Source: an uncultured Hyphomicrobium sp. (GTDB taxonomy: Bacteria > Pseudomonadota > Alphaproteobacteria > Rhizobiales > Hyphomicrobiaceae). From it: a stretch of DNA of 37,231 bases. How positions within the stretch are numbered: position 1 is the stretch's first letter; every line of letters begins with the position of its first letter. Shown here in pieces: positions 4,107-9,535 of this stretch. The position numbers and the translations under genes were made by a program. The notes beneath the pieces were generated by a model. It was not told the origin of the DNA, ran no database searches, and saw only the letters and a list, made by a program, of their open reading frames with translations. Location of the stretch: the NCBI RefSeq assembly GCF_902826555.1, contig NZ_CADEFI010000032.1, positions 1 through 37,231 on the forward strand, read 5' to 3'.

Positions 4107-5156
4107 TCACTGAGTTGACGGCACATTCGATGAACCAGATGCACCCTGCACGCGCCGCGCCGGCCGCGTTTCCGCTTCGACTCGGCGCGTGAGAAGGATC
4201 GTCACCGCACGCCGGTTCTGCGCCAGGCACTCAGGCGCCGCACAGTCCGACACGCGGTCCTCGCGGCCTCGCCCATAAGCCAGGACGCGCTCGTCCTCCA
4301 CACCCTCCGCGATCAACCGGTCGCGGACCGCTGTCGCACGCTCATCCGAAAGCCGCTGCATCTCGGTATCGGGCATCGACCCGTCGTCGGCAAAGCCTTC
4401 GACCGCGACGTAGAGCTCGGGATAGCGTTTCAGGAAACGCGCTTGAGACTGGATGACGCCCCGCGCGCGCGCGCCGAGATCGACGCTCCCTGCGCTGAAA
4501 AACACCCGGTCGCCCGCGTCCGACAGGAACTCGCCATCGAGTGCAGGAGACACGCGGGCCTGATGCAGAGCCGCGCGCGACGGCTGCAGAGCGACACCGG
4601 GCTCGGCTGGCTTCGACCGGGCATCCGCTTCGGCCACCCACGGCAGGGCACCGGTATCGCTCGCTGCCGGCGCCGCGGCCTCGGCACCCGCGCGATAGAT
4701 CCGCCCCAGATGCTGGCGTGCAGCTCCCGCACGCGGACTATTGGGCGCCTCGGCAATAAGCCGCTCGAACAGGCGCTGTGCTTCGTCGCGCCGTCCGCCT
4801 TCGAGCGCCGCCGTCGCGTTTTGATAGAGGGACTCTGCGGCCGTCTCGCGCGAAGGCGCCGATTCCCAGCCCTGAAAAAACCAACGGCCGCTGCCGTCGT
4901 CTCCGCTGTCACGCCGGCGCTCCGGCACGCCCGCCGGCGGCTCTACGACAGAAAACCCATCGTGCGGCGAGCCCACAGGCGGAGAACCGAGTGTGAATGT
5001 TCCGATGGGGACTTCACGCGCGCCCGCCGCCGGATCCTGGGCCGACGCAGCGGTCGATCCGAGCATCTGCAGGACGCCGCAAGCGGCGAGCCCCGCGACA
5101 GCGAGCGCTAAAACACGCCCCGCCGTCGAACAGTCCCTCGCACGTCCCGTGCGCAT
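4107..5156 (-). CDS. Second Pal-like protein: TPR region plus OmpA C-terminal domain
   Basis: This is a 349-residue exported protein between pal and cpoB. The chosen ATG at 5156 follows GAAGGTG by about 6 bases and gives a clean signal sequence; the frame is open to 5309 but without a signal peptide at that end. The export signal contains LAAC with Cys at residue 26, which fits a lipobox, but a later ASAQ site would fit signal peptidase I. Residues about 125-180 look TPR-like (two helices around EGGRRDEAQRLFERLIAEAP). Residues 215-324 form an OmpA/Pal-type peptidoglycan-binding domain (FFSAGSVDLG, VEGFADD, LSDERATAV, AQNRRAVTIL). Like the neighbouring Pal it has a C-x4-C pair just before the QNRR motif, so I infer descent from a pal duplication. 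It probably binds peptidoglycan; its specific role is unknown. Confidence 0.82.
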   Translation of the reverse strand: MRTGRARDCSTAGRVLALAVAGLAACGVLQMLGSTAASAQDPAAGAREVPIGTFTLGSPPVGSPHDGFSVVEPPAGVPERRRDSGDDGSGRWFFQGWESAPSRETAAESLYQNATAALEGGRRDEAQRLFERLIAEAPNSPRAGAARQHLGRIYRAGAEAAAPAASDTGALPWVAEADARSKPAEPGVALQPSRAALHQARVSPALDGEFLSDAGDRVFFSAGSVDLGARARGVIQSQARFLKRYPELYVAVEGFADDGSMPDTEMQRLSDERATAVRDRLIAEGVEDERVLAYGRGREDRVSDCAAPECLAQNRRAVTILLTRRVEAETRPARRVQGASGSSNVPSTQ

Positions 5157-5335
5157 GGTCGGCACCTTCGTCTCCCGTCTGCGTTCGGACGCACCAAACG
5201 CCGATGTCGTTGGGAAAAGCTGTGACCCCGCAATACGGCTAAACTTTGCCGTGTATCGGCCGGAAGACGGGCATTCCTGCGTCCCCCGGAAGAAGGACTG
5301 CGAAGGCATCGGCTATAGGCTGAGAGCGAGGGGCC

Positions 5336-5845
5336 TTAGGAGGCGACCCGACTGTTGAGCACCGTCTGCGCACGCCGATTCTGCGACCAGCACGAGATAT
5401 CGTTGCAGACCGCAACCGGCCGTTCCTTGCCGTAGGAGATCGTGCGCACGCGATTGGCCGCCACCCCGTTCTGCGCCAGGAAGTTGCGAACCGACGTCGC
5501 TCGCCGGGCACCGAGCGCGATATTGTACTCGCGCGTGCCGCGCTCGTCCGCGTGGCCCTCGATGGTGATGGTGAACTGCGGATACTGCCTCAGCCACTGC
5601 GCCTGCTTCTGCAGCGTGGTCTGCGCCTCAGGTGTGAGATCCGTGCTGTCCGACGAGAAGTAGACAAGGTCGCCGACGTTCACGCTGAAGTCGCGACTCG
5701 TGCCGGGCGTAATGGGGCCCTTGCCGTCGGGGCCGAGCCCCGCATTGGCATCGTTCTGATTGTTGGCGCATCCGCCGAGGGCCACAGCCGTGACGAGAAG
5801 CAGCAAAGCGCATGTGAAGCCCGAGGCCCGAAAAACAGGCGCCAT
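5336..5845 (-). CDS. pal: Peptidoglycan-associated lipoprotein Pal
   Basis: Pal is anchored in the outer membrane by lipid, binds peptidoglycan noncovalently and is moved by TolA/TolB to septa. The ATG at 5845 follows AAAGGATG and is preferred over an in-frame TTG one codon upstream. The 169-residue product has a lipoprotein signal with LGGC and the lipidated Cys at residue 26. A short Asn/Gly linker follows, then the OmpA-type domain: VYFSSDSTDLTPEA, IEGHADERGTREYNIALG, ARRATSV and SQNRRAQTV. The Asp and Arg of the peptidoglycan-binding motif (DERG...GARRA) are present. A C-x4-C pair precedes SQNRR. It belongs to the tol cluster but is separated from tolB by about 1 kb holding two small lipoprotein genes, so it may have its own promoter. 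Confidence 0.97.
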   Translation of the reverse strand: MAPVFRASGFTCALLLLVTAVALGGCANNQNDANAGLGPDGKGPITPGTSRDFSVNVGDLVYFSSDSTDLTPEAQTTLQKQAQWLRQYPQFTITIEGHADERGTREYNIALGARRATSVRNFLAQNGVAANRVRTISYGKERPVAVCNDISCWSQNRRAQTVLNSRVAS

Positions 5846-6210
5846 CAAATCATCCTTTCGTAGGCTCTACGGCGGCGATCCGCTCACCGGAGCCAAATAA
5901 CTCCCCTTAGGGACCTGATACCCGAGCCAAAGTACGAAAATGTGGCCGTTTCCTCTGTGCGGCATAGATCCGCAGAGATCGACCTTTTCGCGACGCCCCA
6001 AGTGCTTACCCGGCGATTCCTCTGGCGCCACCGTACCCCTTACGGAATTGAGCAGACGATTCTAACCGCTCGCGCGGCTGTCGTCCCCGAAGGCACTCGC
6101 CGCGAAAATGAGCGATCCGGCCCGAGGCAGCAAGCGCGAATGTGACGATGGCAAAATAGCCTGGGGAAAGCGCGCCGTAGCCGAGCCAATGCCGATTCGA
6201 TCGGGCGCTG

Positions 6211-6252
6211 AAAAACGAAAAGAGCTGTCGCAGCATTCGCCACGACAGCTCT
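6211..6252 (-). terminator. Rho-independent terminator after the small lipoprotein pair
   Basis: On the minus strand a perfect 10-bp stem (AGAGCTGTCG at 6243-6252 read in reverse complement, paired with 6221-6230) encloses a 12-base loop and is followed by TTTTCGTTTTT (6211-6221). This is a classic intrinsic terminator about 50 bases after the stop codon of the 40-residue lipoprotein. It should isolate the lipoprotein transcript from pal. Confidence 0.8.
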
Positions 6253-6260
6253 AATCTTTC

Positions 6261-6292
6261 AAGTCGACCTGGACGAGGTCCAGGCTAGACTT
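6261..6292 (-). terminator. Second hairpin just after the 40-residue lipoprotein gene
   Basis: CCTGGAC (6268-6274), a 3-base loop and GTCCAGG (6278-6284) form a stem extended by AAGTC/GACTT arms (6261-6265 and 6288-6292). It starts 12 bases after the lipoprotein stop codon. It lacks a U-run of its own and may protect the 3' end of the message or act with the terminator beyond it. Confidence 0.5.
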
Positions 6293-6303
6293 TCAATTCG
6301 CTA

Positions 6304-6426
6304 TTAGCGAACGTCGGCAACAGCCGGAACGTCAGCGCCGAGCTTGAGCGGAGCAGCCTCTTCACGACGGCAAGCGCCGAGAGCGACAGCAACGATAGCG
6401 GCAGCGAGAACGATAGCGCCCTTCAT
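6304..6426 (-). CDS. Tiny predicted lipoprotein, 40 residues (tandem copy 1)
   Basis: The reading frame starts at ATG 6426 with AGGAGAT about 7 bases upstream. The product has a short positively charged start (MKGAIVL), a hydrophobic stretch of Ala and Val, and the lipobox LGAC with Cys at residue 19. The predicted mature lipopeptide is only 22 residues: CRREEAAPLKLGA followed by DVPAVADVR. The residue after the lipidated Cys is Arg, not Asp, so export to the outer membrane is likely. Codon use is dominated by GCT, GTT, CGT and CTC, which differs from neighbouring genes that prefer GCC and resembles that of highly expressed genes. It lies 41 bases after copy 2, is followed by two hairpins, and the 20 residues around the lipobox match copy 2. 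I do not recognise the family. The function is unknown. Confidence 0.78.
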   Translation of the reverse strand: MKGAIVLAAAIVAVALGACRREEAAPLKLGADVPAVADVR

Positions 6427-6467
6427 GGTAGTATCTCCTGTTGTGTCCCAAAGTGAAATTTCGGACG

Positions 6468-6602
6468 TTAGCGAGCCACTTCCGTGGCAGTCGGAACCTC
6501 GGCGCCGAGCTTCAGCGGTGCCGCTTCTTCACGACGGCAAGCGCCGAGTGCAACAGCGACGACGGCAGCCGAGAGAACGATCAGCCCCTTCACACCCTGC
6601 AT
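6468..6602 (-). CDS. Tiny predicted lipoprotein, 44 residues (tandem copy 2)
   Basis: The ATG at 6602 has AGGAGA about 8 bases upstream. The product begins MQGVKGLIVL, continues as a hydrophobic Ala/Val stretch and has lipobox LGAC with Cys at residue 22. The mature peptide is 23 residues, CRREEAAPLKLGA then EVPTATEVAR. It is clearly a paralogue of copy 1 downstream (20 consecutive identical residues around the lipobox), and the two are almost certainly cotranscribed. Codons are closer to the genome average than in copy 1. The pair sits between tolB and pal, so a role in the envelope is likely from location and lipidation, but no function can be assigned. Small tandem lipoproteins such as the entericidins have a similar size, but I see no sequence match to them. 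Confidence 0.78.
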   Translation of the reverse strand: MQGVKGLIVLSAAVVAVALGACRREEAAPLKLGAEVPTATEVAR

Positions 6603-6644
6603 GGTCTTTTCTCCTGATGCTTGTTCGGCAACGAGCCGAATATT

Positions 6645-6673
6645 TGGGTACCGGCATGGCTTGATTTGATCAA
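6645..6673 (-). promoter_or_regulatory. Weak promoter candidate of the lipoprotein pair with palindrome over the -35
   Basis: On the minus strand TTGATC (6668-6673) is followed after 17 bases by TACCCA (6645-6650), a poor -10. The -35 lies inside a perfect palindrome CTTGAT-TTG-ATCAAG (6660-6674), which could be an operator. A further stem TTCGGC/GCCGAA (6624-6629 and 6635-6640) lies in the predicted leader. All are sequence predictions. Confidence 0.3.
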
Positions 6674-6792
6674 GAACTGAGGGCTCCGAAGCACTGTTTT
6701 CCCCCCTCGTAGATGCGAAAATGCCACGCCGTTGTTCACGCTCCACTGCCCTCTGGCGCGCACGGGCGTCACATCAGGAAGCGATTGACTCC

Positions 6793-6822
6793 CAACGTGA
6801 AAACGCCCCCGCCTTCGCGTTG
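6793..6822 (-). terminator. Possible hairpin after tolB
   Basis: CAACGTGAA (6793-6801) and TTCGCGTTG (6814-6822) form a 9-bp stem with one mismatch, about 55 bases after the tolB stop. There is no clear U-run. It may end or stabilise the tolQRAB transcript. Confidence 0.3.
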
Positions 6823-6876
6823 AGGAGCTGATGCAAGAATACGCTCCGCGCAGTTAACGAGCGGTAAAGCTCCGTG

Positions 6877-8436
6877 TCAGTTCAGAAGCGGAGACCAGGC
6901 CGGGTCGGAGCCGTAGGACGGCGTGCTCACGACTCGTTCGTTGTAGCCCGTGAGATCGACCGAGTAGATTCGCGGCCCACCTTCCTCGCCCTGGCTCTCG
7001 CGGAAGAACATGAGCACGCGCCCGTTGGGCGCCCAGGTGGGCCCTTCATTGTGGTACCCCTCGGTAAGAATACGCTCTCCCGACCCATCGGGGCGCACGA
7101 CGCCGATCAGGAATCGCCCGGCGAGTTGCTTGGTAAAGGCGATGTAGTCGCCGCGCGGCGACCAAACGGGCGTCGAGTAGCGGCCGTCGCCCAGGCTGAT
7201 CCGGCGCGCGCTCCCGCCGCTGGAGCCCATGACGTAGAGCTGCTGGGTACCCTCGCGATCGGACTCGAAAACGATCTCGCGCCCGTCGGGCGAAAAGCTC
7301 GGGCTGGTGTCGAGAGCGCCGGATTTCGTGAGCTGCCGCGACTGGCGCGTCCTCAGATCCATCACGAAGATATTGGAATCGGCACCGTCCTGCAGGCTCA
7401 TGATCACGCTCTGCCCGTCGGGCGAGAAGCGCGGCGCGAATGTCATGCCCGGAAACTCGCCGACCGCCTCCGTCTTCCCGTTCTGAAGGTTCATGAGGAA
7501 GACTTCAGGCTGGTCCTTCGTGTACGCCATGTAGGCGATTTCGCTCGCGACCGGATTGAATCTCGGCGTCAACACCAACTGCTGGCCCTGCGTGAGCAGG
7601 CGCACGTTCGCGCCGTCCTGATCCATGATCGCAAGCCGCTTCACGCGCTTCGCCTTGGGGCCCGTCTCGTCGACGAACACCACGCGCGTGTCGAAGTAGC
7701 CCTTCTCGCCCGTGAGCCGCTCGTAGACCTGATCGGCGACCAGATGTCCGACACGCCGCCAGTTCTGCGCCCCGGTGGTGAACCGCTGCCCCGCGAGCTG
7801 CTTGCCGCTGGTGACGTCCCAAAGCCGGAACTCGGATGTGAGCTTTCCATCGGCGCCGCGCACGACCCGCCCCACGGCGAGCGCCTCGGCACCGATTTGC
7901 CGCCAATCCGGAAAGCGCGGCAACGCGTTGACGTCCCTGATGTCTTCCAGATAGGAGGCCGGATCGAGCGGCTGGAACAGCCCTGAGCGCTCGAGATCCG
8001 CCATCAGCACCTGCGCAACGTCCTGGGCGAGCTTCGGATCATCGCCCGTAAATGGGGGAATGGCGATCGGGATCGGCGCCACGACACCCTGGCGCTGCGT
8101 GCCGCGGAGACCATCGGAGCTGAACCCATCCTGGCCGCCGCCCTGGTAGCCGGCACCGCCGGGAGCCCCGCCGCCCCCTCTGAGGTCGCCGCCTCCACCG
8201 CCGCTCGGAGCAGGCGGAGGCACGTCGTAGCCCTGTTGGCGCAACTGATCGCCGAAGCTCCCGCCTCCGCCGCCACCCGCGGGCGGGCGATAGGCATCAT
8301 CGACCTGAGCCAGTGCCGGCACCGTCACCATGGCGGCAGCAGCCATCACCAGCGCCGCGCCGAGCATCGAGAGGAAAGCCCGCGCCATGCGTTGCCGCGT
8401 GCGCCCGGAATGAGAAAGCATGCGAATACCGGTCAT
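6877..8436 (-). CDS. tolB: Tol-Pal system beta-propeller protein TolB, with Gly-rich N-terminal extension
   Basis: TolB is the periplasmic partner that binds Pal and TolA and controls their cycling. Several in-frame Met codons exist; ATG 8436 is preferred because GAGGA lies about 5 bases upstream and it gives a signal peptide ([13 protein letters not shown]... cleaved near PALAQ). The open frame extends to a GTG at 8481. The 519-residue product has an unusual 75-80 residue segment right after the signal peptide, rich in Gly and Pro (two runs of five or more Gly). The TolB N-terminal domain follows ([24 protein letters not shown]), then a six-bladed propeller with repeated FSPDG and WSPRG turns, ending YGSDPAWSP. 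In the family the mature N-terminus is the segment that contacts TolA, so the extension is notable. The gene starts about 31 bases after tolA. Confidence 0.95.
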
Positions 8437-8467
8437 TGTCCTCATCATCGATGCTGGCCCGAACGCT

Positions 8468-9535
8468 TTACAGCATTTCACGCGGATCGAAATCCCAGAT
8501 GATTGATTTCCAGGCCCAGTACTTGTCGGGCGGAAGCGAAAACGGCGAGCAGGCCTTGACGGCCCGCACCGCAGCTTCGGCGGCTATCTGATAGACGGGG
8601 CCGGATTGCGGCGCCTCGAGCGCCGGCTCGCCATCGAGCGTGCCATCCGCCATGAGCCGCCAGCGGAGCGTGACCACCATGGTCTCGATGCCGCCGCCGC
8701 CGCCCGGCAGCTTCCAGCACTGCCGCAACTGGGCGCTGATCTGGCTGCGCAACAGATCCTGCTCGCGCACCGAAAGCACGGGCGCATCGCCTTCGCGGGC
8801 CCCCGCCGTCGGGCCGGTGTAATCGGTCGGATTCTGCGGTTGGGTCGCCGAGTTCGGCGCCCCCTTGCGGGTCGGATCCTTGTCGAGAAGAGCGGCCAGG
8901 CGATCGGCCTCCTGCTGCTTCTTCTTTTTTTCCTCTTCCTTGCGCTTCTGCTCGGCGAGCTTCTTTTTACGCTCTTTCTCTTTTTGCTCGGCCTTGCGTT
9001 TTTCCTCGGCCTTCTTTTTCTCTTCCTCGTCCTTTTTCTTTTTTTCCTCTTGCGTCTTCTGCTGCGCTTCCGCCGCGCTCAGCTCCTCGGCTTTCTTCTC
9101 CTCTTCGATCTTCTTCAGCTCGTCAGGCGTCGGCCCAGGCGGCGGCTGCTCGACCGGCAGCGCGGCGAGCTTCTCGGCGATCGGGTCCTTCTTCGGCTCT
9201 TCCTTCGGCGGCTCGGGCGGAGGTGCTTCAACCTTCTTCTCTTCGACCGGCGGCGGAGCCGGCTCGACGGGCAGCTCCGGAGCCACGACAGGCTTCGGCT
9301 TCTCGGCCTCGAGTTTCGACACCTCGGGCTTCGGCTCGTCCTTGGCCTTCGCCTCGAGCTCGGTTGCCGTCTCGCTGCCCTTCTTGAGCGCAAGCAGGTC
9401 CGACGGCGTGATGAGCGCGACCGTGATCGGCTCCGGCTCCGGCGGCTTCAGCGGCGGCGTATTGAGCATGGCGAGGTACATCCACAGAAGGGCCCCGCCA
9501 TGCAAAAGGATGGAAACGGTCAGTCCGAACGGCAC
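8468..9535 (-). CDS. tolA: TolA inner-membrane spanning protein
   Basis: TolA links the TolQR motor in the inner membrane to TolB/Pal at the outer membrane. The start is GTG at 9535 with GTGAGGT about 6 bases upstream; a TGA lies in frame four codons further up. The 355-residue protein has one N-terminal membrane anchor ([18 protein letters not shown]). A long Pro/Lys/Glu stretch follows, and a highly charged helix built of Lys, Glu and Ala runs over about residues 145-215, typical of TolA domain II. The C-terminal TonB/TolA-like domain is about 100 residues ([42 protein letters not shown]). The order tolQ-tolR-tolA-tolB supports the call. The gap to tolR is about 230 bases, longer than usual, and I see no gene in it. 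Confidence 0.94.

Follow-up and report, generated by a model that had tools for sequence, protein, structure and literature searches.

A tandem pair of very small lipoprotein genes with matched cores between tolB and pal in Hyphomicrobium and its relatives

The window analyzed here (the whole stretch of 37,231 nucleotides from an uncultured Hyphomicrobium sp.) carries a Tol-Pal cluster in which two very short open reading frames stand between tolB (6877..8481, minus strand) and pal (5336..5848, minus strand, itself preceded by conserved blocks). Their presence raises the question of whether such short frames are real genes and, if so, what two lipoproteins with the same core might do in this position.

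The gene pair and its family

The two frames lie in tandem on the minus strand with a spacing of 41 nt. Copy A (6468..6602) encodes a 44-aa prolipoprotein with a 21-aa signal peptide and a mature part of 23 aa, and copy B (6304..6426) encodes a 40-aa prolipoprotein with an 18-aa signal peptide and a mature part of 22 aa, both mature lengths assuming cleavage before the lipobox Cys. The bacterial lipoprotein signature is present in both copies in the form of the lipobox LGA-C, and the 13-residue core, CRREEAAPLKLGA, is identical in the two. Each start is preceded on the same strand by an AGGAG ribosome-binding site (6611..6615 for copy A and 6435..6439 for copy B), and a GGAG, GAGG, or AGGA site is found upstream of copy A in 62/62 loci and upstream of copy B in 52/62. 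A sequence-only reading of this DNA had described two tandem lipoprotein frames of 44 and 40 residues with good ribosome sites and an identical core; the coordinates, lengths, mature sizes, ribosome sites, and core agree with that description. Genes this small are easily overlooked.

Copies A and B are real genes, since relatives of copy A were found in 97 of the 103 genomes of the window's GTDB family (E ≤ 0.01) and pN/pS is about 0.2 (0.19 over 389 pairs for copy A and 0.22 over 442 pairs for copy B, computed on orthologue pairs with ≤25% differing sites), the differences between orthologues being mostly silent. When only genomes with ≥90% completeness and ≤5% contamination are considered, the count is 75 of 76, and five of the six genomes of the GTDB family that lack one (G004, G028, G058, G088, G090, and G092) are only 54 to 83% complete. 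Relatives with the conserved core do occur between tolB and pal in related genomes, the place to which the sequence-only reading had pointed for homologues. An order-wide search with a 33-row alignment of the lipoprotein family as the query matched 88 of 397 genomes at E ≤ 0.01. These comprise 58 genomes with E ≤ 2e-9 (counted by eye), 7 with matches that read through a TAA (two of which, L152 and L153, were inspected and are shortened relatives), and 23 with weak matches, a minority of which were inspected singly. The class-wide search matched 19 of 385 genomes, one of them the window's own; the other 18 matches are weak (best E 8.6e-5) and, judged as a set, were taken as chance, as was a third match in the window's own genome (E 0.23, in a 301-aa frame). 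The L176 match (E 1.2e-4), a longer lipoprotein (CRKSEQGRPLMYKKGTYLGAPD...) with a faint likeness to the core, encoded beside a putative formate dehydrogenase gamma subunit gene (by eye), was not counted as a family member.

Alignment of 33 members revealed eight invariant columns (K5, A21, C22, R24, P29, K31, L32, and G33 in copy A numbering) and four that are nearly invariant (A18, R23, E25, and R44). The core, of 13 to 14 residues, follows the pattern C-R-R/K-E-x(3-4)-P-M/L-K-L-G; the conserved stretch adjoins the lipid, and the tail is variable apart from its mostly basic final residue. Among 196 unique CDS, a set that includes 8 weak matches, Arg is found at position +2 in 181 and Glu at position +4 in 170; the C-terminal residue is basic in 165 of the 192 closed CDS (Arg in 150 and Lys in 15). 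The lipobox was an inclusion condition for the 196-CDS set (five frames were dropped, among them two good copies with FAA-C, L055 and L180), so family-wide lipobox counts are no test of it. No Pfam model fits copies A and B in a scan at E ≤ 1, and no NCBIfam model fits either (best score 18.3 bits against a cut-off of 50); a search of PDB sequences returned two weak matches, the better one (E 0.042) to a designed-repeat chain. No paper on these proteins was found in the open-access literature searched, which is not proof of absence. The gene pair is thus part of a family that is conserved in Hyphomicrobium and its kin and has no name as yet.

Position in the Tol-Pal cluster and transcription signals

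The genomic context was surveyed in the best 80 of 226 tolB loci, taken from named genomes; pal is within reach in 72 of these. The tolB-pal slot carries one to three family copies on the same strand in 34 of the 72 loci (a single copy in 11 and three copies in 3) and no family member, by the search used, in the other 38, and the Tol-Pal system is presumably able to work without the family there. Gaps with the family measure 761 to 2124 nt and those without it 174 to 527 nt, except for the 800-nt gap of L070, which was scored as lacking the family and holds a shortened relative. Other arrangements were found in two genera. In genus g8 (G024 and G026), a small gene of the family lies 0.4 kb behind tolB and pal is on another contig, and in genus g55 (L152 from G132 and L153 from G208), the small gene stands in a row with a tolQ match before it and a pal-like gene after it, the latter with an OmpA domain by Pfam in L152. 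A search for TolB in two single-contig g55 genomes (G208 and G287) gave no match; lack of TolB would be an unusual feature in a Tol system. A TolR-type gene between these genes (ExbD by Pfam) was shown in one other g55 locus only, L178 from G469, which gave no pal match. Third family copies lie outside the Tol cluster in six g11 loci (L140 and L142 to L146), all of which have a gene of one sequence cluster, ∼340 to 350 aa long, with a TonB_C domain by Pfam in the one tested; the third copy is adjacent and convergent to that gene in four of them (L143 to L146) and more than 2 kb away in two. The Tol-Pal position of the family is therefore preferred, not absolute, with g8 and g55 as the exceptions. 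In the window itself, a second OmpA-like gene (4107-5309, minus strand) stands between pal and cpoB; in tblastn, it also matches pal of other loci.

The gene pair looks like its own transcription unit because of three features on the minus strand: a promoter-like element with fixed spacing, a CtrA-type box after tolB, and a terminator after copy B. The promoter-like element, TTGATC and TACCCA separated by 17 nt (6645..6673, upstream of copy A), is conserved in the alignments, and the 17-nt spacing between TTGATC and TAC recurs in 62 of 81 loci, the distance being readable in 72. These 81 are the nonredundant loci among the 87 for which CTTGA and 330 nt of sequence before the first copy were available; the presence of CTTGA was a condition of selection, but its spacing was not. 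The sequence-only reading had proposed a candidate promoter; a scan with the sigma-70 consensus gave no match, but this conserved block does lie upstream of copy A. Between this element and the ribosome site of copy A, the predicted 5' untranslated region contains a hairpin (TTCGGC-TCGTT-GCCGAA, 6624..6640, minus strand) with a low fold z score (-1.25); 62/81 loci have a GGC..GCC hairpin ahead of the ribosome site, and 77/81 have AGGAG ahead of the start of the first copy. Rfam gave no match within positions 5800-6900.

The CtrA-type box, TTTACCGCTCGTTAA (6854..6868, minus strand), has one mismatch to TTAA-N7-TTAA and follows the tolB stop closely, at about -266 relative to copy A. A box with at most one mismatch occurs at -300 to -230 in 52 of the 81 loci, exactly in 22 of them, against 1.1 in shuffled sequences (maximum, 6); it is absent from this place or has at least two mismatches in 29 loci, and it occurs elsewhere in the upstream stretch in 9. 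Since the window holds two CtrA-type boxes in 37 kb, a count reached by 10 of 100 shuffles and not unusual by itself, the evidence for the predicted box is its fixed place across genomes, including six aligned genomes of the genus in which it stands right after the tolB stop. TTAA-N7-TTAAC is reported as the CtrA consensus of Hyphomonas neptunium (PMC7200025).

The 100-nt 3' region of copy B contains three hairpins (fold z score, -8.24), the last of which is an intrinsic terminator with a 14-bp stem and a T tail (6221..6252, minus strand). The number of terminators found by the scan is at chance (1 against 1.1 in shuffles), so the weight of this one comes from the fold and from its conservation in six aligned genomes; the scan found none between copies A and B. 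The earlier suggestion that the genes have their own terminators is consequently not supported for each gene separately. In several alphaproteobacteria, tolQRAB and pal-cpoB are described as separate units (PMC9275681); in keeping with that description, the gene pair would be a third unit, placed between those two. A motif, CATTTTCG, that occurs upstream of copy A (6711-6726, minus strand), where it forms TTTTC..GAAAA arms, and twice upstream of pal (about 6100-6120 and 5931-5946, minus strand), in conserved blocks, is a possible site of a regulator common to copy A and pal.

The codon usage of one copy had also been called unlike that of the neighboring genes and suggestive of very high expression. 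The skew toward T-ending codons is real in copy B (0.44, compared with 0.26 in copy A, 0.13 in tolB, and 0.10 in a set of 11 ribosomal-protein genes chosen by eye from the genome's ORFs), but it does not agree with the usage of that set. The CAI relative to those genes is no higher than the null in either copy (0.51 against 0.513 in copy B and 0.48 against 0.515 in copy A), and the codon argument for high expression was rejected.

Matched cores of the two copies

The matched cores of the twins in the Tol-Pal slot are the new and unusual point about this locus. The core type depends on the genome: one genus has EEAA, a second has EEPA or EEPV, and VPHT, VEHT, and AEHT occur elsewhere. Often both copies are alike, this listing being drawn from sets with E < 1e-6 only. 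Copies A and B have the same core in 31 of 59 pairs, compared with 2.4 under random pairing (maximum, 9 in 5000 shuffles), and different cores in the remaining 28. The 59 pairs are the 64 A/B sets that fit C-x(3-8)-P-[ML]-K-L-G-[AGVS] minus those with identical core DNA; short or odd cores (e.g., L018, L027, L047, and L063) and third copies were left out. Identity between A and B at the variable positions 5 to 8 is 0.915 within genomes and 0.376 across genomes; the corresponding values are 0.710 and 0.567 for the signal peptides and 0.434 and 0.327 for the tails. On a tree of TolB with 62 tips, 45 core changes were assigned to copy A and 52 to copy B, of which 28 fall on the same branch, 26 of them to the same residue, whereas 7.2 same-branch changes were expected (standard deviation, 2.2; maximum, 15 in 2000 simulations). 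For this test, changes were placed by Fitch parsimony on a tree built with FastTree from tolB fragments, and it covered 62 of 63 pairs (L209, with too little tolB, was dropped). The cores of A and B tend to change together in evolution.

One explanation of this pattern, to which we give somewhat less than an even chance, is that it reflects only gene conversion between tandem repeats and carries no information on a shared partner. Codons of the invariant residues agree more often within genomes (4.92 of 7) than between them (4.38), and none of 5000 shuffles reaches the within-genome value. At two tips of the tree, L050 and L183, copies A and B have more codons in common with each other than either has with its orthologue in the genome used for comparison. 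L024 and L025 hold near-duplicate gene pairs (112 and 113 of 123 nt identical, respectively), whose two peptides are identical, including the signal peptide. However, the signal peptides of A and B are unlike in 60 of 62 pairs, and the codons of these peptides are not clearly more alike within genomes (the observed value is attained in 165 of 2000 shuffles), while the core codons, of which there are about 13.5, differ synonymously almost as often between A and B of one genome (5.4) as between genomes (5.8). In L025, both copies have Val, encoded by GTA and GTT, where L024 has Ala, and the third bases of the L024 copies are kept, which suits separate changes, even though L024 and L025 are also the most homogenized pair. 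We think that gene conversion and selection for a shared partner both act on the cores; conversion may account for some of the match. As to TolB as the partner, no co-variation with the core was detected in 212 TolB columns (best P value, 0.024, against a threshold of 2.4e-4).

Possible function of the twin lipoproteins

The reading that best fits these data, proposed tentatively and at somewhat under an even chance, is that the twins are lipopeptides of the outer membrane. Through the core that they have in common, they would dock on a single envelope partner and serve Tol-Pal or cell division and the stability of the outer membrane. By the usual sequence rules, the signal peptide with its lipobox would be removed and the new N-terminal Cys acylated. 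Arg at position +2 suits outer-membrane sorting under the +2 residue rule and would let the Lol system bring the lipoproteins to the outer membrane, into its inner leaflet. Lipobox and +2 Arg together suggest the outer membrane as the location of both copies, and the position of the genes points to a possible Pal-linked role. The mature peptide would then consist of a lipid anchor, a core of 13 to 14 residues, and a short variable tail usually ending in Arg. The anchored core, acting as a short lipopeptide, could dock on an envelope protein common to both copies, and such docking would serve the machinery of Tol-Pal, division, and outer-membrane stability. With two nearly equal copies under separate control, dose and timing could be set, the timing perhaps being linked to the cell cycle in a CtrA-type manner. 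Points in favor of this reading are the conserved coding sequences, the locus, the core next to the lipid, the matched cores, the signals for separate transcription, the family copies divergent to an L,D-transpeptidase gene in two genomes, and the published cases of HP0135 and DalA (described below). Points against it are the negative result for TolB co-variation, the share that gene conversion may have in the match, the 28 of 59 pairs with unlike cores, the g8 and g55 arrangements, the 29 of 81 loci in which the CtrA-type box is absent from its place or has at least two mismatches, the 9 with a box elsewhere, and the 38 of 72 loci without the family in the gap.

Small outer-membrane lipoproteins are a known kind of protein; the matched twin cores in the Tol-Pal slot are the unusual part. 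HP0135 of Helicobacter pylori and LptM (YifL) could serve as working parallels, LptM as a case of a small lipoprotein that docks on a barrel (PMC10567701). As described (PMC11768039), HP0135 is a 44-aa prolipoprotein with a mature part of 28 aa, an outer-membrane lipoprotein with a short conserved stretch, and its loss leads to hypervesiculation and mini-cells, so an outer-membrane lipoprotein of 28 residues can matter. The likeness to the twins is drawn from the description (a tiny outer-membrane lipoprotein); the conserved part is C-terminal in HP0135 but next to the lipid in the twins, and homologues are reported there in Helicobacter only (PMC11768039).

The twins might instead be bulk structural lipoproteins that act by number, like Lpp or OprI, and that are perhaps tied to the peptidoglycan by L,D-transpeptidases via the conserved Lys or the C terminus, but this appears unlikely. 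Lpp, too, is a small outer-membrane lipoprotein with a basic C-terminal residue, and a bulk role would suit the copy number (often two in a cluster and up to three), the conserved promoter-like block and terminator, and the prevalence of basic C-terminal residues in the family (165/192). It would also suit the lack of any Lpp over the cut-off in the genome, where the two PF04728 matches are below the cut-off and at other places. Moreover, in each of two genomes that belong to different families, a copy of the lipoprotein family is encoded divergently to an L,D-transpeptidase gene (L141:3299-4135 and L147:3998-4832; YkuD by Pfam for the L141 gene, with the L147 gene in the same sequence cluster). 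These transpeptidase-side copies, however, have NGLG or NGFG and no core Lys, and a Lys located 9 to 11 residues from the lipid would offer a very short span. The C-terminal residue in the family is mostly Arg, as it is in both twins, and not the Lys in which Lpp ends; Arg cannot make the Lys-type peptidoglycan link of Lpp. Neither twin matches PF04728, the codon usage is unlike that of ribosomal-protein genes, and a mature part of 22 to 23 residues leaves no room for the Lpp helix.

It is less likely still that the twins are assembly factors of the LptM type, in which an acylated core would mimic a lipid ligand and aid the folding of an outer-membrane barrel or translocon. As described (PMC10567701), LptM is a small lipoprotein that docks on a larger outer-membrane complex, a barrel, and its anatomy is similar, with a conserved motif right after the acylated Cys and a variable tail, although the E. 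coli protein has ∼48 mature residues (20-67) compared with 22 to 23 in the twins and is encoded in another locus (PMC10567701). Matched twin cores would suit one common pocket. Neither twin, however, matches PF13627 at E ≤ 1 (the three PF13627 matches in the genome are all under the cut-off and located elsewhere), and the locus is that of Tol-Pal, not lpt or bam. Entericidins A and B, a toxin and its antidote, resemble the twins in being tandem small lipoproteins, but an entericidin-like pair, or another tandem small-lipoprotein toxin system, is very improbable here, as the mature cores are the same and not opposed, the family copy number varies from 1 to 3 (11 single-copy and 3 triple-copy loci among the 34 occupied), 97 of the 103 genomes of the GTDB family have relatives, and no entericidin model was found in the Pfam scan at E ≤ 1.

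Alphaproteobacteria hold their outer membrane in place without Lpp, a task reported to be performed by peptidoglycan-bound beta-barrel proteins (PMC9275681), perhaps with other contributors. Another alphaproteobacterial outer-membrane lipoprotein, DalA of Rhodobacterales, is reported to coprecipitate with Pal and L,D-transpeptidases (PMC10470522); compared with the twins by description, it is encoded in its own locus, and homologues are reported in about 3% of Hyphomicrobiaceae genomes (PMC10470522). A more specific form of the docking proposal, rather doubtful at this stage, is that the docking is lineage specific: the lipid-anchored core would be a 13-residue code, read by one envelope receptor of the Tol-Pal or division machinery and changing together with it. 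The twins would then be part of the way in which these bacteria without Lpp keep the outer membrane in place, with timing set by the cell cycle. If so, both copies would be held to the same core within each lineage by the common receptor. A lipoprotein family with a mature part of 22 residues, found in 97/103 genomes, with a CtrA-type box, a preferred slot in the Tol-Pal cluster, and no Pfam or NCBIfam model, can be directly deleted and labeled, and its matched cores provide a handle for finding the envelope partner.
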